Source of the DNA: a virus
IMG/VR virus record: IMGVR_UViG_3300013102_000043
Coordinates: 1 to 46,443 of that record
Length of the DNA: 46,443 nt
Reading direction: 5' to 3' (one strand)
In this document: one piece after another, positions 4,689 through 46,380 of the stretch
Layout: every line of letters begins with the position of its first letter
How positions within the stretch are numbered: the stretch's first letter is position 1
The notes under the pieces: generated by a model
What the model was told of the DNA's origin: nothing
The model's database searches: none
Seen by the model: only the letters and a program-made list of their open reading frames with translations
Translations under genes and position numbers: made by a program

Positions 4689-5399
4689 TCAGCAGTCAGC
4701 ATTGTCCGAGGCTGTTTTACTAGCTGCTGGGATAAGTCGTTGTAATGCTTCTATAAATATCGTCAAACTCAGGCTTTGAGACTTTTTGTCTTCGATATCT
4801 TTAAGTCTTCTAATTTTTTTACAAATTATTGAGTATTCTTTGTACCGCTTCACGCTGCTAATGTTTTCTTTGGTTAGTAGGTGGGCTAAACGACGAGCGC
4901 AGGTATTTATTTGCGGCTGTTTTTTTGGGGTTGGCTCGTAGAAAGGCAAAATCCAACATTCAATCGAGTGAATTGATATTGCAAATATAATTTGATCCTG
5001 GTACTGGTTGTAAAATCCATCCGGGAATTTGCTAATTATCAAAGATGTTACTTCTGATATAATTTGTGCTTCGGGGATCTCTCCATTGGAGTCTGTCAAC
5101 TGAATACCAAAATTCTGGTGCCCCCCAGTATCAGTATCCATCTGTATAACAAGATATCGATTATAGGCCATGGCTTTATTAAGTGAGTTCTGGCAGGAGC
5201 AAAACTCGAAAACTCGTTCCCATCCCCCTTTTGGCCCATACCATGCGTTATCTGTTTCGTCAGGCTTGGGATGAAAGCGGTTTATGTAGATTTGGTTTTC
5301 TAAATTTTTCGCGAGCGTTGTATGGATTAGTCTTTCTATGACTGCGTGATCCGATACACCTTCAGTAACGAGGGCAAAGCTTGTCGCCTTAGAATCCAT
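4689..5399 (-). CDS. TOPRIM-like partner of the AAA ATPase
   Basis: A 236-residue protein from the ATG at 5399. The frame also allows a GTG at 5411, but only the ATG has an AGGTGG upstream. Near the start FALVTEGVSDHAVIERLI gives the TOPRIM-style glutamate (E13), and YLVIQMDTDTGG gives a D-x-D (D88, D90). HSIECWILPF near residue 147 recalls the E-x-W segment of RloB and DUF4276-type TOPRIM proteins. Members of this fold act as nucleases or nucleotidyl-handling effectors. It overlaps the ATPase gene by 11 bp and is AT-rich. The likely role is effector of a two-gene phage-exclusion module. The family assignment is by motif only. Confidence 0.6.
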   Translation of the reverse strand: MDSKATSFALVTEGVSDHAVIERLIHTTLAKNLENQIYINRFHPKPDETDNAWYGPKGGWERVFEFCSCQNSLNKAMAYNRYLVIQMDTDTGGHQNFGIQLTDSNGEIPEAQIISEVTSLIISKFPDGFYNQYQDQIIFAISIHSIECWILPFYEPTPKKQPQINTCARRLAHLLTKENISSVKRYKEYSIICKKIRRLKDIEDKKSQSLSLTIFIEALQRLIPAASKTASDNADC

Positions 5400-6645
5400 T
5401 TGGTAGGCCACCTATCAATCCACTCATAAACATTTCAGATAGAGGAATCTTGTCGTCCTTGTCTTTTGTAATTCGCCTTACATTGCTAAATCCGTCAATA
5501 TCCCTCGAAACAACGAACAGGCGTTGGTCGTCGTCCGATAGATTTAATCCATCTAGGATCGCAGGATTGTGGGTTGTTAGGATTGCTTGTTTATTGTTTT
5601 TTTTAGAAAGATTAACTATTATTTGTATGAGTTTTCTGCATAGTTTTGGGTTTAGCGATGCATCAATGTTGTCAATTGCAAAAAAACTTGGGGTTAATTC
5701 GGTGGAGAATAACGCAAAGTAAAACGCTAAAAATAAAAAGCCTTCATTAGCACTTCTTTGGTCGAAGCTAGCATGGTCAGCATCTAGAAATCTGTCTTGA
5801 ATCTCGAGTGAGGCCGGCATGCTACCTTGTTCTGCTTTTATAGTTAATCCGTCAAACCAGTCGAGCAGGCGAAGAGAGCCATTTATACTGTTTATTGGAT
5901 CTTTGTTATCTGATTCAGATAATACATTTAAAAGTTTAATCAAGCCTTCGCCATTTATTCCTAGAGGCTCTATTTGTCCTTCTTTGTCAAAAAGGCGGAG
6001 AGCTGTATTTTCCGGTGAATAAATAATAAAATCGCTAAGCTCTTTATATGGGGCCACTAACTCTTCTTGGTAGGAAGTAATAAAGTTGAAAAAGCTAGTG
6101 CTTGCGGAAATGGGTACCGTTATAGGAAGCGCTTTCTTTCCTCTTCTCTTTGGTTGCGATTTTTTGGACTCGTCGAGCGCTTTGCTCAGATTTTTTATAA
6201 CTTCAAGCATCTCATTTTTTGAAGTGGTCTTACTCTCAAGAAAATCTTGAAACTTTTGCGACAGAGCTCCCTCGCTGCCATCTTTTACTGAGGCGGTGTG
6301 CTCCCAGTTGGAATAGGGTTTATTGTCATTTTTCATTAAAAATGACACTGGGGCTTTGTCTTCGGGCGTTACATCAATGCTAATTATTTCAGATTCTGAA
6401 AAGCCTGGGAAGCGAGGTCTCATAAGCTGTGGCTGTGTAACCCGTATACCGCGAGAGATAAGAAACTCACTATCAAGCTTCCTAGCGCTCGCAGCACCAG
6501 CCAATGCAATGCCTTCAAGAATATTGCTCTTGCCTGCGCCATTTTCGCCCACGAAAACATTAATTCGGCCAAGAGAAATCTTTAAGTTGTCGATCGACTT
6601 AAAGTTTTGAATTTCGATCGTTTTAATCACTTGTCTTATATCCAT
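5389..6645 (-). CDS. AAA family ATPase (RecF/OLD-like, abortive-infection type)
   Basis: A 418-residue ABC-type ATPase. Near the start IEIQNFKSIDNLKISL is followed by Walker A GENGAGKS (33-40). RSANEG near 293 is the signature-like loop, FFAIDNID (321-328) the Walker B, and TTHNP with H359 the switch histidine. The usual Walker B glutamate is asparagine here (D-N). There is no TOPRIM domain in the same chain. That domain is supplied by the next gene, as in PARIS (AriA/AriB) and RloAB. The gene is AT-rich and lies directly downstream of cI, in the position of lambda rexA. The likely role is sensor/motor of a phage-exclusion system (inference). Confidence 0.75.
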   Translation of the reverse strand: MDIRQVIKTIEIQNFKSIDNLKISLGRINVFVGENGAGKSNILEGIALAGAASARKLDSEFLISRGIRVTQPQLMRPRFPGFSESEIISIDVTPEDKAPVSFLMKNDNKPYSNWEHTASVKDGSEGALSQKFQDFLESKTTSKNEMLEVIKNLSKALDESKKSQPKRRGKKALPITVPISASTSFFNFITSYQEELVAPYKELSDFIIYSPENTALRLFDKEGQIEPLGINGEGLIKLLNVLSESDNKDPINSINGSLRLLDWFDGLTIKAEQGSMPASLEIQDRFLDADHASFDQRSANEGFLFLAFYFALFSTELTPSFFAIDNIDASLNPKLCRKLIQIIVNLSKKNNKQAILTTHNPAILDGLNLSDDDQRLFVVSRDIDGFSNVRRITKDKDDKIPLSEMFMSGLIGGLPNGF

Positions 6646-6796: not shown

Positions 6797-7558
6797 TTAT
6801 CGCGCGAACATTCCCCACCAGAAGACGTGCCCCAGTATCGCTATATTCTGATCCTGTATCTCAGTAAAGGTGTAATCCTCATCTGGATGCTCTTCCCGGT
6901 TAAAGCTGCGAAGTCGAATGCCAGAGGGCAGTCTATAGAGCTGCTTCACGCGAAGCTGACCATGATGGGTGATCGCATACATGTCGCCATCGACGATGTC
7001 ACCCAGCGAGCTCTTGCCTATGTTGATGCCTACGGTGGCGCCATCGCGCAGCACCGGCAGCATGCTGTTGCCGCTGACGACCACGCATTTCGCGTTGCTG
7101 AACATAACGTTGTTATGACGGAGGTCTTTCTTGAAGAAGCGTAGTTTGGCGGTGTCGCTTTCTTCGATCACAAATCGGCCCGAGCCGGCAGCCAATTCCA
7201 CTTCTCGGAGGAAAGGGACGTAGACCTCGTCATCGTCGAGAGGGGTATTGTCGTCCCAAGGCTTGATGTCCGAGAGGTGGACGTCAGCACGGATGGCTCG
7301 ACCAGAGCCTACCTCGGCCTCTGAAGCCGAAAGAATATTGCCCATTCTATCGCTTAAGCCCCAGTGAGCAGGCTTCACAACGTCCGAGAAATACTCAATC
7401 AGCTCCATGAGCTTCGACTTATCGATTCGACCCGTCTTCACCCAGCCTTGGACAGACGGACCTGCCACGCCGAAATCTTCGGCGAGCTTCTTCTTTGTAA
7501 CGCGTTTGGCGACCCGAGCTTGCTCGATGGCTGCGCCTAATTCAGGACCTGTAAGCAT
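6797..7558 (-). CDS. cI: CI-type repressor with S24 autopeptidase domain
   Basis: A 253-residue repressor. Residues 20-50 form a helix-turn-helix (KKKLAEDFGVAGPSVQGWV). The C-terminal half is a LexA/S24 peptidase with cleavage site A124-G125 (ELAAGSGRF), nucleophile S165 (SGNSMLPVLRDG) and K205 (LRVKQLYR). It keeps the prophage silent and should self-cleave with RecA after DNA damage. It is divergent from cro across the operator region, and downstream of it lie the ATPase and TOPRIM-like genes. All key residues are present. Confidence 0.92.
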   Translation of the reverse strand: MLTGPELGAAIEQARVAKRVTKKKLAEDFGVAGPSVQGWVKTGRIDKSKLMELIEYFSDVVKPAHWGLSDRMGNILSASEAEVGSGRAIRADVHLSDIKPWDDNTPLDDDEVYVPFLREVELAAGSGRFVIEESDTAKLRFFKKDLRHNNVMFSNAKCVVVSGNSMLPVLRDGATVGINIGKSSLGDIVDGDMYAITHHGQLRVKQLYRLPSGIRLRSFNREEHPDEDYTFTEIQDQNIAILGHVFWWGMFAR

Positions 7559-8591: not shown

Positions 8592-8619
8592 TACAGCGGT
8601 AAAGCAAGTGGAGAAGATT

Positions 8620-9435
8620 ATGCACGCACAGACACAACAGAACAATACCGGACAGGTCGCGACACGTTTTGTTAATTCCGAAAACGTGTCGCGGGCCACG
8701 ATGTCGTCCCGCGAGATCGCCAACGTCACCGGCAAGCGTCACGCCAACGTGAAGCGCGACATCGCTGCGATGTTGAAAGAACTCAAATTAGATGTACTCA
8801 GTTTTGAGCACATCTATCTGGACGGTCAAAACCGCGAGCAGGTCGAGTACATGCTCGATCGCGAGCAGACCGACTGCCTGCTCACCGGCTATAGCGCGCC
8901 GATGCGCATGAAAGTGATTCGCCGCTGGCGTGAGCTGGAACAGCAGCAGGGCGCCCGCGAACAGGTCCTGCTCAATGGCACCAAGGTCGTCGGCGAGATC
9001 GCCATCATGGAATGCTTCACGCGCCTGCTGAAGCCCGCTCCATCCTGCCAGATGGCCATGCTCACGAAGATCGCCCAGAACAACGGCCTGGACCCGAAGT
9101 TTTTACCAAGCTATGCCGTCGATGCTGCGCCAGATGCTGCGCCAGATGCTGCCGGCGGCTCCTCGATGCCCACCAAGTCGGCCACGGCGCTACTGAAAGA
9201 CAACGCCATTTGCGTTTCGCCAGCGGCATTCAACCGCGCACTGGAAACCAGGGGCCTTCTTAAACAGCTCCAGCGCAAGAACTCCAAACGGGAAATGGTT
9301 CCGTTCTGGTCGGTGACTGAGCAGGGCCTTCGTTTCGGTAAGAATTTGACCAATCCTCAATCCCCTCGCGAGACACAACCTCACTGGTACGTGGATCGTT
9401 TCCTTGAGCTGGCTGCATTGGCTGGGAAAGGCTGA
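8620..9435 (+). CDS. rha: Rha-family phage regulatory protein
   Basis: A 271-residue protein from the ATG at 8620 with GGAG upstream (a GTG at 8608 is in frame). Residues about 24-115 form a Rha domain: TMSSREIANVTGKRHANVKR, then a region with DREQTDCLLTGYSAPMRMKV. The C-terminal part has a KilA-C/antirepressor-like segment (FNRALETRGLLKQLQRKNSK). Rha proteins affect early phage development and interfere with growth in some hosts. Two oddities: a 36-bp palindrome lies inside the N-terminal codons, and a 12-bp repeat at 9121-9153 encodes DAAPDAAPDAA. Confidence 0.85.
   Translation: MHAQTQQNNTGQVATRFVNSENVSRATMSSREIANVTGKRHANVKRDIAAMLKELKLDVLSFEHIYLDGQNREQVEYMLDREQTDCLLTGYSAPMRMKVIRRWRELEQQQGAREQVLLNGTKVVGEIAIMECFTRLLKPAPSCQMAMLTKIAQNNGLDPKFLPSYAVDAAPDAAPDAAGGSSMPTKSATALLKDNAICVSPAAFNRALETRGLLKQLQRKNSKREMVPFWSVTEQGLRFGKNLTNPQSPRETQPHWYVDRFLELAALAGKG
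8658..8693. repeat. 36-bp palindromic element, copy 1 (inside rha)
   Basis: CGCGACACGTTTT and AAAACGTGTCGCG are perfect 13-bp arms around a 10-base spacer. A second 36-bp element with the same outer ends lies at 15888-15923. Inside rha it encodes ATRF...ENVSR just before the Rha domain. Confidence 0.8.
9121..9153 (+). repeat. 12-bp tandem repeat in rha
   Basis: GATGCTGCGCCA twice plus a partial third copy, coding for DAAP units. It is a possible site of slippage-based length variation in a linker. Confidence 0.8.
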
Positions 9436-42067: not shown

Positions 42068-42250
42068 ATGTACGCGATTTCGGAAAACGGATGGAGATCA
42101 GTAGGAGATAGCAATGAAATTGCTGAGGGGGAGGTTTTAGTAGATGATATTCCTAAATGGTTGTCTGAGAAAGTTAGATCTGACGAACTGAAGTATATGG
42201 AAGGGCTCGATGAGCCCCTCGATCGAGTGATTATGAGAAAGCTCCTCTAG
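42068..42250 (+). CDS. Small protein after the fibre, 60 aa
   Basis: Start ATG at 42068 with GAGAGG upstream. MYAISENGWRSVGDSNEIAE opens the protein. It is acidic and soluble, AT-rich like the fibre end, and could be a fibre-assembly helper or partner of that fibre tip. Not recognised. Confidence 0.65.
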   Translation: MYAISENGWRSVGDSNEIAEGEVLVDDIPKWLSEKVRSDELKYMEGLDEPLDRVIMRKLL

Positions 42251-43227
42251 CTATCGGCTTTAACCTGAATTGATTCAGAGTTAATAATCTTTCGTTTTTT
42301 CTTAAGTGACAGGGCCGGCTTTTCTACCGCGAACCAGCTGAAAAGGGATACAGCTATTAGTACTGGTGCACCCACAAAGAACATACCCTCAAATGAGCTA
42401 GGAACAAGTTTTGACGACATATAGAATATAGGGTCATGAAACACGTATACCCCATATGAAATATCGAATGGCATTTTCGGTAGGGATGGTGCATTTAAGC
42501 ACAGGTTCAACGCTAGAAAACCACCAATGGGAACCATGTACCAAGCTTGCGGAGGGAGATGGTAGTATATGTTTAGCGCTGTTACGAGTATCAGAACAAA
42601 GGCGAGCAATAACCAAGGTAGTTTTGAAAGTTGTTCCTTGTATAGAAAAACAAGGTTTCCGGTAAATAGTGCTGGGATGAGGTTTGTTATGCGCCATACT
42701 GGCTCTTGCTGGTCAAATACTGCTGCAATGCCGCATGAAACTACAAAGCAGCTCCAAATTATTATTTTGTGGTTGTATGCCCTCATTGCAATAAGCAATG
42801 CCATGATGGCGTAAGCTATTTCCTCCCAAAGTAGCGACCAAAGTGAACCGTTGCCGCCCGGACTGGATAGCAGCATTCCACCGCCTATGTAAATTTTGAT
42901 GGAGCCAATAACGCCGATATAGAAGCCCCACACAAAACCACTAACGACTAACGAAAGTATTAAAGCTGGAAGTATCCTCAAGGCTCTTTTTTGCATAAAG
43001 TGAAACCAGCTTCTGCTCGATGCAAAGCTGTTGAACATAAGGTAGCCAGAGAGAGCCAAAAACGTTGGAACCATTGGAAACGGGATCGCTCCAAAAGGAA
43101 CGTCCTCGCCATTAACCACTCTGGAAAAGTAGCCAGCATGAAAGTAAGCGACGGAAAACGACAAAAAAAGTCGAAGCCAGTCAAAGTTTGAATTCCTATT
43201 AGCCTCAAGCGGCTGCCGACTGGTCAT
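42247..43227 (-). CDS. Acyltransferase-3 family membrane protein (putative O-antigen acetyltransferase)
   Basis: A 326-residue polytopic protein. NSNFDWLRLFLSFSVAYFHA near the N-terminus carries the family's R-x10-H-like start (LRLFLS...YFH), and about ten membrane spans follow. The family moves acyl groups onto surface sugars. Encoded by phages it usually changes the O-antigen and blocks further adsorption. It is opposite-strand, AT-rich, and adjacent to the fibre. RBS AAGGACG before the ATG at 43227. The substrate cannot be told from sequence. Confidence 0.85.
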   Translation of the reverse strand: MTSRQPLEANRNSNFDWLRLFLSFSVAYFHAGYFSRVVNGEDVPFGAIPFPMVPTFLALSGYLMFNSFASSRSWFHFMQKRALRILPALILSLVVSGFVWGFYIGVIGSIKIYIGGGMLLSSPGGNGSLWSLLWEEIAYAIMALLIAMRAYNHKIIIWSCFVVSCGIAAVFDQQEPVWRITNLIPALFTGNLVFLYKEQLSKLPWLLLAFVLILVTALNIYYHLPPQAWYMVPIGGFLALNLCLNAPSLPKMPFDISYGVYVFHDPIFYMSSKLVPSSFEGMFFVGAPVLIAVSLFSWFAVEKPALSLKKKRKIINSESIQVKADS

Positions 43228-43360: not shown

Positions 43361-43786
43361 ATGACAGTATATGAAAAAGACCGCGACATCCTCGCACGCA
43401 CGCTATGGGGGGAGGCTCGAGGCGAGAGTCTCGCCGGCCAGATTGCCGTGGCCTGGACCATCCGCAATCGCGTCAACGACGGTAAGGCCAAGTCGTGGTG
43501 GGGTGAGGGTTACGCCGGCGTGTGCCAGAAGCCGTACCAGTTCAGCTGCTGGAACAAGAGCGACCCAAACTATGCCTACCTGAGTGGCGCGAAGCCAATC
43601 CCGTTCCGTGAGTTTGCTCAGGCGCAGATCGCCGCTGACCAGGTGATTGCAGGCAGGGTGCCTGATCCTACTGGCGGCGCCACCCATTACTACGCGACCA
43701 CCATGCTGAAGCCACCAGTCTGGGCGAAAGGTGCCAAGCAGACGCTGAAGCTCGGTCATCACGTCTTCTTTAGGGATGTGCCTTAG
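43361..43786 (+). CDS. Endolysin, SleB-type cell wall hydrolase
   Basis: A 141-residue protein. DRDILARTLWGEARGESLAG holds the catalytic glutamate region of the SleB/hydrolase_2 fold. VAWTIRNRVND, then YQFSCWNKSDPNY and GATHYYATTMLKPPVWAKGA complete it. There is no signal peptide or membrane anchor, so it needs a holin (at 14718/15047) to reach the peptidoglycan. It is the only lysin seen and is far from the holins. Confidence 0.92.
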   Translation: MTVYEKDRDILARTLWGEARGESLAGQIAVAWTIRNRVNDGKAKSWWGEGYAGVCQKPYQFSCWNKSDPNYAYLSGAKPIPFREFAQAQIAADQVIAGRVPDPTGGATHYYATTMLKPPVWAKGAKQTLKLGHHVFFRDVP

Positions 43787-44321
43787 CAAGCGGCATTTGT
43801 GGGCCACTATCAAATTCGAATCTCTCGCCGTAGATCGAGCAATATTCAGTGTGGAGACGAAGATGTCTTTCTATGTAGTCGTCAATAGGCTCTTTCGCAT
43901 TTGTAAACTGCAGTTCCACCAGCTGGATGTTGTGACCAACTGGAAGCATAAATGGAGTATTTATAGACTCTATTGAAATTATTTTGCACCTGTCGAGACT
44001 TCCAAATGCATTCTTAATTAGGGCTTCGCCTGACCCATCAACTTTGGAGTGATTTTTATAAATGCTTAGCGCAGCTATTCTTGCGGGTCCAAGTCCGTCA
44101 TTGCGTAAGGTTATTGTAAACAGGTTGTCGTTCTCTTCGCTGTGAACTGCTAGATGAGGCCGTACCGACAGCCGATTATGTTTTCGTGACAGGTGCGACT
44201 GGTAAATTGTGGCAAATAAAGCGAGAAGCGCAATAATTCCCGAAGCTATAGCGGGTATATCGTCAGTCCAGTTGGTTTCAGGTGCCGCATTGATGAGTAT
44301 GTATTGAATGTCGTTGTTCAC
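43770..44321 (-). CDS. Membrane-anchored hypothetical protein, 183 aa
   Basis: Starts at a GTG at 44321 (weak RBS). MNNDIQYILINAAPETNWTD is followed by one membrane span (about 25-44, IPAIASGIIALLALFATIYQ) and a cytoplasmic, beta-type domain (LFTITLRNDGLGPARIAALS). It overlaps the end of the endolysin by 17 bp on the opposite strand. AT-rich. A moron; possible superinfection-exclusion role by context. Confidence 0.65.
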   Translation of the reverse strand: MNNDIQYILINAAPETNWTDDIPAIASGIIALLALFATIYQSHLSRKHNRLSVRPHLAVHSEENDNLFTITLRNDGLGPARIAALSIYKNHSKVDGSGEALIKNAFGSLDRCKIISIESINTPFMLPVGHNIQLVELQFTNAKEPIDDYIERHLRLHTEYCSIYGERFEFDSGPQMPLAKAHP

Positions 44322-44527: not shown

Positions 44528-45223
44528 TTAGAACAAGCCGGCGCCCTCCAACGGCTTGATCAGATCCGGCCCCTGGTTGTGCACATTTCCGATGGCTCGG
44601 TCGACCTTGAACCACTCGAACGCCTCTGTCGGATCACCTTGGAGCAATACCATCTGTTCGGCGCGCTCTTTTGGTGTAGCCGGGTCCAGCCATTCACGCG
44701 CCAGTTCGGGCGAGAGCGTCACTGGCCTGCGATCCTGGATGTCCACCATGCCGCCGGCGCTGTCGGCGGTGATGATGACGAAGCCGTCGTGCTCGCTGGG
44801 TTCACGTTCGGCGTTTGGGTATTGGCCGATCGCGGCGCACAGGATCGGCGCTCTATCACGTCGGCGGATCAGATAAGGCTGCTTCTTGGGGCCGCCTTCG
44901 TCCACCCACTCAAACCAGTTGTCGATCGCGATGATTGCCCGGTGCGGCCAGATCGCGCGGAAGAACGGACCGTGGGCGACTTTCTCCACCCGGGCGTTGA
45001 TCGGTGCCGCGCGGTCTTTGGCCCAGTGTGGTCGCCACCCCCAGCGAACCATGTCCGCGCGCAGAAACTGACCCTCTTGGTGAAAGAGGGCAAGTTGCGT
45101 GGTCGGAGCGGCGTTATAGCGCTCGAAAGGCTGGTCGCCGGCATAGTTGATCAGTGCGTTTGGAATACTGAGCGCTGCCACAAAGTCGTGAATGCCTCGG
45201 TACTGGGAAAGTCCTCCGCACAT
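44528..45223 (-). CDS. SRAP-domain protein (YedK/HMCES-like)
   Basis: A 231-residue protein with GAGG 8 bases before the ATG. C2 (after Met removal the N-terminal catalytic Cys), N37 (YNAAPTTQ), N76 (INARVEK) and E105 (NWFEWVDEGG) are in place. The motif that normally reads I-H-D-R is I-Q-D-R here (Q163, codon CAG), so the conserved His is missing. SRAP proteins cross-link to abasic sites in ssDNA and protect them. It lies behind a LexA-box gene. Confidence 0.88.
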   Translation of the reverse strand: MCGGLSQYRGIHDFVAALSIPNALINYAGDQPFERYNAAPTTQLALFHQEGQFLRADMVRWGWRPHWAKDRAAPINARVEKVAHGPFFRAIWPHRAIIAIDNWFEWVDEGGPKKQPYLIRRRDRAPILCAAIGQYPNAEREPSEHDGFVIITADSAGGMVDIQDRRPVTLSPELAREWLDPATPKERAEQMVLLQGDPTEAFEWFKVDRAIGNVHNQGPDLIKPLEGAGLF

Positions 45224-45251
45224 GGTTAAACCCTCACTCTGAATACCGAGC

Positions 45252-45602
45252 TTAGATGATCGTCTTTGAGTCAGGGGTCAGGCCATCCAGTAACCCGCGC
45301 AGCCGGTCAGCTTCCCGTTTGTAGCCTCGCGCTGCTACGTCGAGGTCGTACAGTTCCTTGCGGACTTTTGCGAGCTGCCCAGATCGCTCCCGAAGATTGC
45401 TCATCACTACGTCACGTTGCGCTGAGGCTTCGTCGTACATTTGCACCAGGCCGAAGATGTTCTCGCGAGCTTTGCGCAGCTGCAGGGTCAGTTCCTGGAC
45501 TTCGTTTTCCAGCATCAATTTGTAATGGGTGATGGTTTCCAGTTCGGTCGGGCATCCAAGCCAGTCGCTGGTGTCTTCGATGTCGAGGGGGTCCACGGTC
45601 AT
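45252..45602 (-). CDS. Coiled-coil hypothetical protein, 116 aa
   Basis: Starts at the ATG at 45602 or the GTG at 45596. The latter has AAGG at a better distance. MTVDPLDIEDTSDWLGCPTE leads to a long coiled coil (LMLENEVQELTLQLRKAREN; NLRERSGQLAKVRKELYDLD). It is first in a leftward unit with the SRAP gene, 28 bases apart, preceded by a LexA box. The function is unknown. Confidence 0.65.
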   Translation of the reverse strand: MTVDPLDIEDTSDWLGCPTELETITHYKLMLENEVQELTLQLRKARENIFGLVQMYDEASAQRDVVMSNLRERSGQLAKVRKELYDLDVAARGYKREADRLRGLLDGLTPDSKTII

Positions 45603-45614
45603 GCCTTATCGATA

Positions 45615-45630
45615 CTGTTCAGATGTACAG
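45615..45630. promoter_or_regulatory. LexA (SOS) box
   Basis: CTGTTCAGATGTACAG fits CTGT-N8-ACAG, the gamma-proteobacterial LexA consensus. It lies 13 bases upstream of the 45252-45602 gene, so damage should induce that gene and the SRAP gene. Confidence 0.75.
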
Positions 45631-45682
45631 TAGTCGATGCGGGCATGATCGGGCGATGGCGAGGCGACGAACTGTAGATCCG

Positions 45683-45892
45683 TCAGTCTGGCGACATCAG
45701 CACTGCGAGCGTCAGCTTGATGAACTCTTCGTTCTTGTCGATGGTGTCCAATGCGCCGCGTACGTTGTCTGCGACGTCAGCCGAGCCTCGCGCCTCGACC
45801 CAATTGGAAAGCTCCAGGATGGCGGCTTCCAGGGCGAGTTGGTTTTCGTTGATCTTGAACAGTAGGGAGGGGAGCAGGTCTGAATTTGGCAA
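45683..45892 (-). CDS. Hypothetical protein, 69 aa
   Basis: Starts at a TTG at 45892 with GAGGAA upstream. It is helical (ENQLALEAAILELSNWVEAR; ADNVRGALDTIDKNEEFIKL), a form I recognise as a common small Pseudomonas prophage protein without known role. It is separate from the LexA-controlled unit. Confidence 0.7.
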   Translation of the reverse strand: MPNSDLLPSLLFKINENQLALEAAILELSNWVEARGSADVADNVRGALDTIDKNEEFIKLTLAVLMSPD

Positions 45893-46321: not shown

Positions 46322-46380
46322 GGGACTTAAAATCCCCCGCTCGTAAGGGCGTGCCGGTTCGATTCCGGCTTCGGGCACCA
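46322..46380 (+). tRNA. 3' part of tRNA-Leu(UAA): right attachment site (attR)
   Basis: GGGA-CTTAAAA-TCCC gives the anticodon arm (anticodon TAA), then the long variable arm, the T arm GCCGG-TTCGATT-CCGGC, and TTCGGGC-A-CCA. The 5' half (acceptor 5' strand GCCCGAA and D arm) is absent. This is what a phage integrated in the 3' end of tRNA-Leu leaves on its far side. The intact copy should lie left of the window. Confidence 0.85.

Follow-up and report, generated by a model that had tools for sequence, protein, structure and literature searches.

The SRAP proteins YedK and HMCES use Cys2 to cap abasic sites in single-stranded DNA, and they guard replication forks and replication intermediates from breakage. 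SRAP takes its name from the SOS response, but what it does in phages has so far been guesswork. A second point of comparison for the locus described here is the antirepressor of coliphage 186, which is named Tum. SRAP genes have been described in temperate phages (SPBc2 and a Burkholderia prophage), and a damage-sensor or switch role was proposed in the main text of that paper (PMC3765255), where the terms "LexA box" and "SOS box" are absent. Likewise, yedK and SRAP are absent from the main text of a paper on the Salmonella SOS regulon (PMC8072944). No report of a LexA-controlled phage SRAP was found in a search of open-access papers.

The stretch of DNA analysed here, hereafter the window, was the IMG/VR record IMGVR_UViG_3300013102_000043, positions 1 to 46,443 (46,443 nt). 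Its source is a lambda-like Pseudomonas prophage with RecE/RecT genes at the left edge and a CI-like repressor that carries a Peptidase_S24 match (E 2e-17). At the right end, the minus strand is transcribed in the order of the 69-aa gene, the LexA box, a coiled-coil gene (cc), SRAP, and the 183-aa gene (Table 1). An exact LexA box before the 69-aa gene was not found in the scan of the window. The tRNA-Leu-like sequence at the contig end matched the annotated tRNA-Leu of an Acinetobacter phage record at 84.7%, and a search of the window for a complete tRNA gene at this end found none. Because of this partial sequence, an attachment site is likely at the right end. Two other regions of the window were also noted. 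An AAA_21-type ATPase and a weak RloB-like match (4689-6645) adjoin the repressor and resemble a defence cassette, and an O-acetyltransferase-type acyltransferase gene just before the endolysin (42247-43227) is likely a surface-modification moron.

Table 1. Features of the prophage window that bear on the cc-SRAP locus
Feature	Position	Strand	Remarks
CI-like repressor with peptidase S24 domain	6797..7558	-	phage's own RecA-responsive switch
Rha/Ant-type gene	8608-9435		
Endolysin (cell wall hydrolase)	43361..43786	+	convergent neighbour of cc-SRAP
183-aa gene	43770-44321	-	between endolysin and SRAP; matches only phrog_35671 (unknown function)
SRAP gene	44528..45223	-	231 aa; YedK/HMCES family; 28-nt gap after cc ORF
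Gln163 codon CAG	44735..44737	-	position of catalytic His (YedK His160); CAC/CAT in relatives
Gly4 codon GGA	45212..45214	-	position of conserved Arg4; CGA in relatives
cc gene	45252..45596	-	114 aa from GTG; ATG ORF 45252-45602 = 116 aa
LexA (SOS) box CTGTACATCTGAACAG	45615..45630	-	TA...TA flanks; end 18 nt before cc GTG
TCGA(T/C)T element	45632..45637	-	directly before box; from alignment of 91 upstream stretches; possible -35
69-aa gene	45683..45892	-	phrog_12397 (function unknown); upstream of cc, adjoins cc in many loci
Partial tRNA-Leu-like sequence	46322..46380		contig end

The first-pass annotation had placed a LexA box before a coiled-coil gene and SRAP, and a perfect CTGT-N8-ACAG was indeed present at this position. 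The box CTGTACATCTGAACAG was the sole exact match to this pattern in the window, and 0.60 matches are expected by chance per 46 kb. The single match, taken without comparison, was not significant in the window. Accordingly, its position and conservation were compared across loci. A scan of the window with the 20-base E. coli-type consensus, allowing up to three mismatches, returned zero matches. In a set of 88 loci from viral and genome contigs, which included the window, excluded seven loci with less than 60 bp upstream, and counted loci as distinct by the DNA around the gene so that near relatives were still present, an exact box was located within 150 bp upstream of cc in 81 loci, compared with 16 of 4000 tiles cut from the same loci. 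When one mismatch was allowed, the box was present in 88/88 loci and 147/4000 tiles. A second, genome-derived set was obtained by searching 298 Pseudomonas genomes and consisted of 30 loci of the best-scoring ones; at least four of these loci repeat genomes already sampled. Here, an exact box was found in 27/30 loci (tiles, 1/565), and a box with up to one mismatch was found in 30/30 (tiles, 28/565).

The position of the box was as constant as its sequence. The best box was located 20-32 bp before the aligned cc start in 85 of the 88 loci, the exceptions being L012, L037, and L109. Alignment of 91 stretches anchored on the box gave the consensus gcCTCgATTA-CTGTATATcCaAACAG-TAt..a.aAgGc...accGTGGAcc, with an information content of 1.9-2.0 bits at CTGT and CAG and mostly <0.5 bits at 45-75 bp upstream. 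Thus, the fixed position and the conservation in the 88 and 30 loci rendered the box significant despite the chance-level single match. Moreover, five cc-carrying Pseudomonas genomes have recA boxes (CTGTATAAGTAGCCAG) and lexA boxes (for example, CTGTATAAAAAGACAG) of the same type as the cc box, the one-mismatch CCAG form included. A palindromic, host-type box conserved at the cc promoter is what would be expected of a member of the LexA (SOS) regulon. The annotation had also assigned control of the unit to host LexA instead of CI, and the recA/lexA type of the box agrees with this assignment. As the box was the only such site in the window, it is not an operator of the phage's own repressor. 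Host LexA probably acts on it.

The second gene of the operon was clearly related to YedK. SRAP matched PF02586 over residues 1-214, a full-length domain (148.8 bits, cut-off 27.1, E 2.1e-43), phrog_1599 with E 8.1e-71, and YedK structure chains over the whole length with E about 1e-48. Cys2 (MCGG) was present in all of 100 distinct sequences, window included, and the Asn of NARVE (YedK Asn75) and the Glu of WFEW (YedK Glu105) were retained. The active-site His, called absolutely conserved in the main text of PMC3765255, was replaced by Gln163 in the window copy, and the conserved Arg4 was replaced by Gly. Among the 100 sequences, the window SRAP alone read DIQDRRP, while 96 read DIHDRRP or DVHDRRP and three differed elsewhere in the motif. 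At the 133 columns conserved at ≥97%, the window SRAP carried four private changes (alignment columns H165Q, corresponding to residue 163, R4G, E199D, and R217H), which was the joint highest number of the 100 sequences (median, 1). In viral contigs, the His motif was found in at least 120 stretches and the Gln motif in one other stretch. This stretch (L207:7303-7992, minus strand) encodes an SRAP that is otherwise intact, and it had no cc match; no further viral SRAP with Gln in place of the catalytic His was found.

According to PMC9436759, the H160Q change in YedK lowered the cross-linking rate about tenfold and severely slowed reversal. By analogy, the window SRAP is probably impaired. With the catalytic His and Arg4 lost, it would be a slow cross-linker and may be decaying; thus, the gene was regarded as an SRAP homologue by descent and was not counted as a fully active SRAP enzyme. 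The Gln and Gly residues may also be a sequencing or assembly error. The earlier suggestion that the phage supplies abasic-site protection was therefore weakened for the window copy. A more far-reaching explanation is that the window SRAP is simply decaying and that cc alone is functional in a fading accessory locus. The four changes at otherwise conserved places and the SRAP remnants in relatives are in line with this explanation, but the open reading frame is intact, the dN/dS to relatives is low (0.04-0.11, although this mostly reflects older constraint), and L207 has the same His-to-Gln change in an otherwise intact SRAP. Decay of this kind was considered a serious possibility, somewhat short of even.

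The association between cc and SRAP was then found to be loose. Of the 55 viral loci, 32 had an intact SRAP no more than 700 bp after cc, as did 4 of the 12 genome loci and 7 of the 30 loci in the second set; the remaining 23, 8, and 23 loci, respectively, contained cc without an intact SRAP, and a few cc loci held SRAP remnants. Conversely, the 92 distinct close SRAP loci comprised 33 that lacked cc and 59 that contained it, and in 54 of the latter an exact box was found within 700 bp; as the SRAP scan covered the best 80 of 477, these shares hold for the present samples only. An obligate cc-SRAP pair was rejected because of these SRAP-less cc loci and cc-less SRAP loci, and the proposal that the coiled-coil protein is a dedicated SRAP partner found no support in this form, as SRAP also occurred behind other genes or alone. 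In these arrangements, cc is the SOS gene that stays constant, and SRAP follows it in some loci only.

Such optional presence is expected of accessory genes, and it could be explained if cc-SRAP served lysogenic conversion. The unit would then give the lysogen additional protection of abasic sites during the SOS response and would play no part in phage growth. The loss or remnants of SRAP in some loci, the location at the prophage end, and the LexA-type rather than phage control all suit this explanation. However, the operon would be expressed just as the prophage is induced and the host nears its death. This explanation was considered unlikely.

The product of cc was characterized through sequence and fold comparisons. 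The true start is probably the GTG at 45596, because an AAGG Shine-Dalgarno sequence lies 7 nt before GTG and 1 nt before ATG, and because relatives have ACG, ATC, GTC, or others for ATG, while GTG-GA(C/T) is mostly kept. The protein comprises a conserved head, MDPxxIEDTSDWLGCPTxLET, followed by one long helix, and its tail is variable. W12, L13, G14, and P16 were invariant in 48/48 sequences, and the AlphaFold2 model contained a single helix at residues 18-113 (mean pLDDT 88.5, pTM 0.49). With a dN/dS of 0.10-0.20 against 13 relatives, cc is under purifying selection by this measure. Where 4 kb of downstream sequence was available (84 loci), a lysis gene converged on cc in 76. The conserved boxes define a small SOS protein family present in about a third of the sampled Pseudomonas genomes (92/298 with E up to 1e-5, although the weak matches, with E above about 1e-9, may represent coiled coils of a different kind).

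The candidate that cc is an already known protein was rejected. No Pfam family scored above the cut-off, and NCBIfam, as well as PHROGs searched with 48 members, gave nothing usable. The best match among PDB sequences was a designed coiled coil (E 0.001), with generic coils making up the rest, and the fold search gave two matches, neither with E under 1. The box and cc were also present in the named phages PseuP_222 and VW-6S. Their cc homologues, each behind an exact LexA box, are labelled "minor tail protein" (PseuP_222, L155:2142-2480) and "DarA" (VW-6S, L157:2489-2848) in GenBank; these labels were rejected, as the family, sequence, and fold searches lent them no support.

An antirepressor was also considered for cc, specifically a LexA-controlled protein comparable to GfoA/GftA of Gifsy or Tum of coliphage 186, which would bind the repressor of its own or a neighbouring prophage and trigger induction, with SRAP as a passenger. 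The same control, the small size, and the place outside the immunity region are shared with such proteins, and the constant head with a variable tail would suit varied repressor targets. According to Lemire 2011 (PMC3121763), such proteins can act on the repressors of other prophages, and Fels-1 has one although its own repressor is cleavable. However, the repressor in the window contains an S24 peptidase, so no antirepressor is needed; cc matches no antirepressor family; and a Rha/Ant-type gene is already present elsewhere in the prophage. Owing to the S24 repressor and the missing family match, this identity was demoted to an alternative that we consider quite improbable.

LexA-type boxes were not confined to loci with cc. 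In 29 of the 33 cc-less close SRAP loci, a 224-241-aa CxxC protein with a CPxCLDRF...DCPTCxGxG-like motif was encoded just before SRAP. A box with up to one mismatch stood immediately before the CxxC gene in 26 of the 27 loci that had enough upstream DNA (12 exact; tiles, 55/1273), at about 790 bp before SRAP. In the other four cc-less loci, an exact box was found 75-77 bp before SRAP in L092 and L128 and a one-mismatch site in L125, while the 700-bp scan of L132 found no box near SRAP. The provisional view that cc-less SRAPs are without SOS control, drawn from two exact boxes in the 33 loci within 700 bp, was overturned by these boxes further upstream. As an observation in its own right, L074-L138 (29 loci) and L154 represent a second SRAP operon type, in which a LexA box is followed by the CxxC protein (phrog_19595, no Pfam) and SRAP.

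A DNA-pattern scan for the active site gave at least 120 stretches, of which 101 distinct loci were used, 65 of them without cc. Among the matches listed, 29 of these 65 loci had an exact box no more than 140 bp from SRAP itself (tiles, 28/5330) and the other 36 had none in this interval; of the 23 cc-less loci whose SRAP was <60% identical to that of the window, 21 had such a box. Phage pAN (L156) and an Erwinia phage (L160) had no box suited to SRAP. The boxes before CxxC-SRAP and lone SRAP genes thus indicate that LexA control of phage SRAP is widespread. On a plain reading of the loci, such control appears to be common and to occur through three layouts, with cc, the CxxC protein, or no other gene first. 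Strictly conserved boxes before these three layouts make the guess about the phage role testable in lysogens that are easy to handle. A chance match, with the operon constitutive or CI-controlled, was considered negligible despite the 0.6 exact matches expected in the window, as the box is conserved at a fixed position in the 88 and 30 loci and boxes also precede other SRAP operons.

Taken as a whole, cc-SRAP is probably a two-gene SOS accessory operon under host LexA with an impaired SRAP in the window copy. It would constitute a moron, carried by the lambda-like Pseudomonas prophage at its right end. As the conserved box suggests, host LexA would keep the operon off, and after DNA damage, RecA filaments would stimulate LexA self-cleavage and the operon would be transcribed. 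This would coincide with the cleavage of CI and the onset of prophage replication. SRAP family members in prophages would then cap abasic sites as YedK does. In a study of DNA glycosylase defence (PMC11078745), however, deletion of host yedK left Brig1 immunity against T4 unaltered; thus, SRAP may be dispensable where abasic sites arise in phage DNA. The cc product would be a separately conserved SOS protein, with its short invariant head and long helix, and probably a dimer. It would work with or without SRAP and might most plausibly bind a protein of host repair or replication as an adaptor, a role that its fold and regulation weakly suggest. The promoter and cc would still be under constraint while the window SRAP may decay.

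A wider proposal is that several temperate lineages have repeatedly placed an abasic-site shield under host LexA with swappable adaptor first genes. The unit would protect phage DNA as it replicates in the SOS response, also from immunity of the base-excision type. This wider proposal is offered only tentatively and is doubtful at present.

Compared with the YedK/HMCES abasic-site cross-linkers, the window SRAP shares homology over the whole length as well as Cys2, the Asn of NARVE, and the Glu of WFEW. Unlike them, it carries Gln at the His160 position and Gly in place of Arg4 and is located in a prophage, behind a LexA box and together with a coiled-coil gene. The operons of Aravind et al. 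(2013; PMC3765255), in which SRAP accompanies umuDC, imuAB-dnaE2, or dinB, likewise place SRAP in an SOS context. However, those contexts contain translesion polymerases, whereas the phage operons described here start with cc or the CxxC protein; in the window, the operon behind the box consists of cc and SRAP alone, with no translesion polymerase gene. The antirepressor operons of Gifsy and of coliphages 186 and N15, as described in PMC3121763, share a host-LexA-controlled unit outside the immunity region. In contrast to these, the prophage in the window has an S24-type repressor with its own self-cleavage domain, cc matches none of the antirepressor families, and SRAP is a repair-type product. 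The arrangement resembles that of Pseudomonas phages F116 and Presto, in which an exact LexA box is followed by a first gene and SRAP, with lysis genes facing them further on. In F116, the order is the box, F116p69, a 30-aa ORF, and SRAP, and the first gene is F116p69 and not cc. A distant relationship of F116p69 to the CxxC protein is evident from 26% identity over 154 alignment columns (E 4e-6) and from a match to phrog_19595 (E 1.9e-8).
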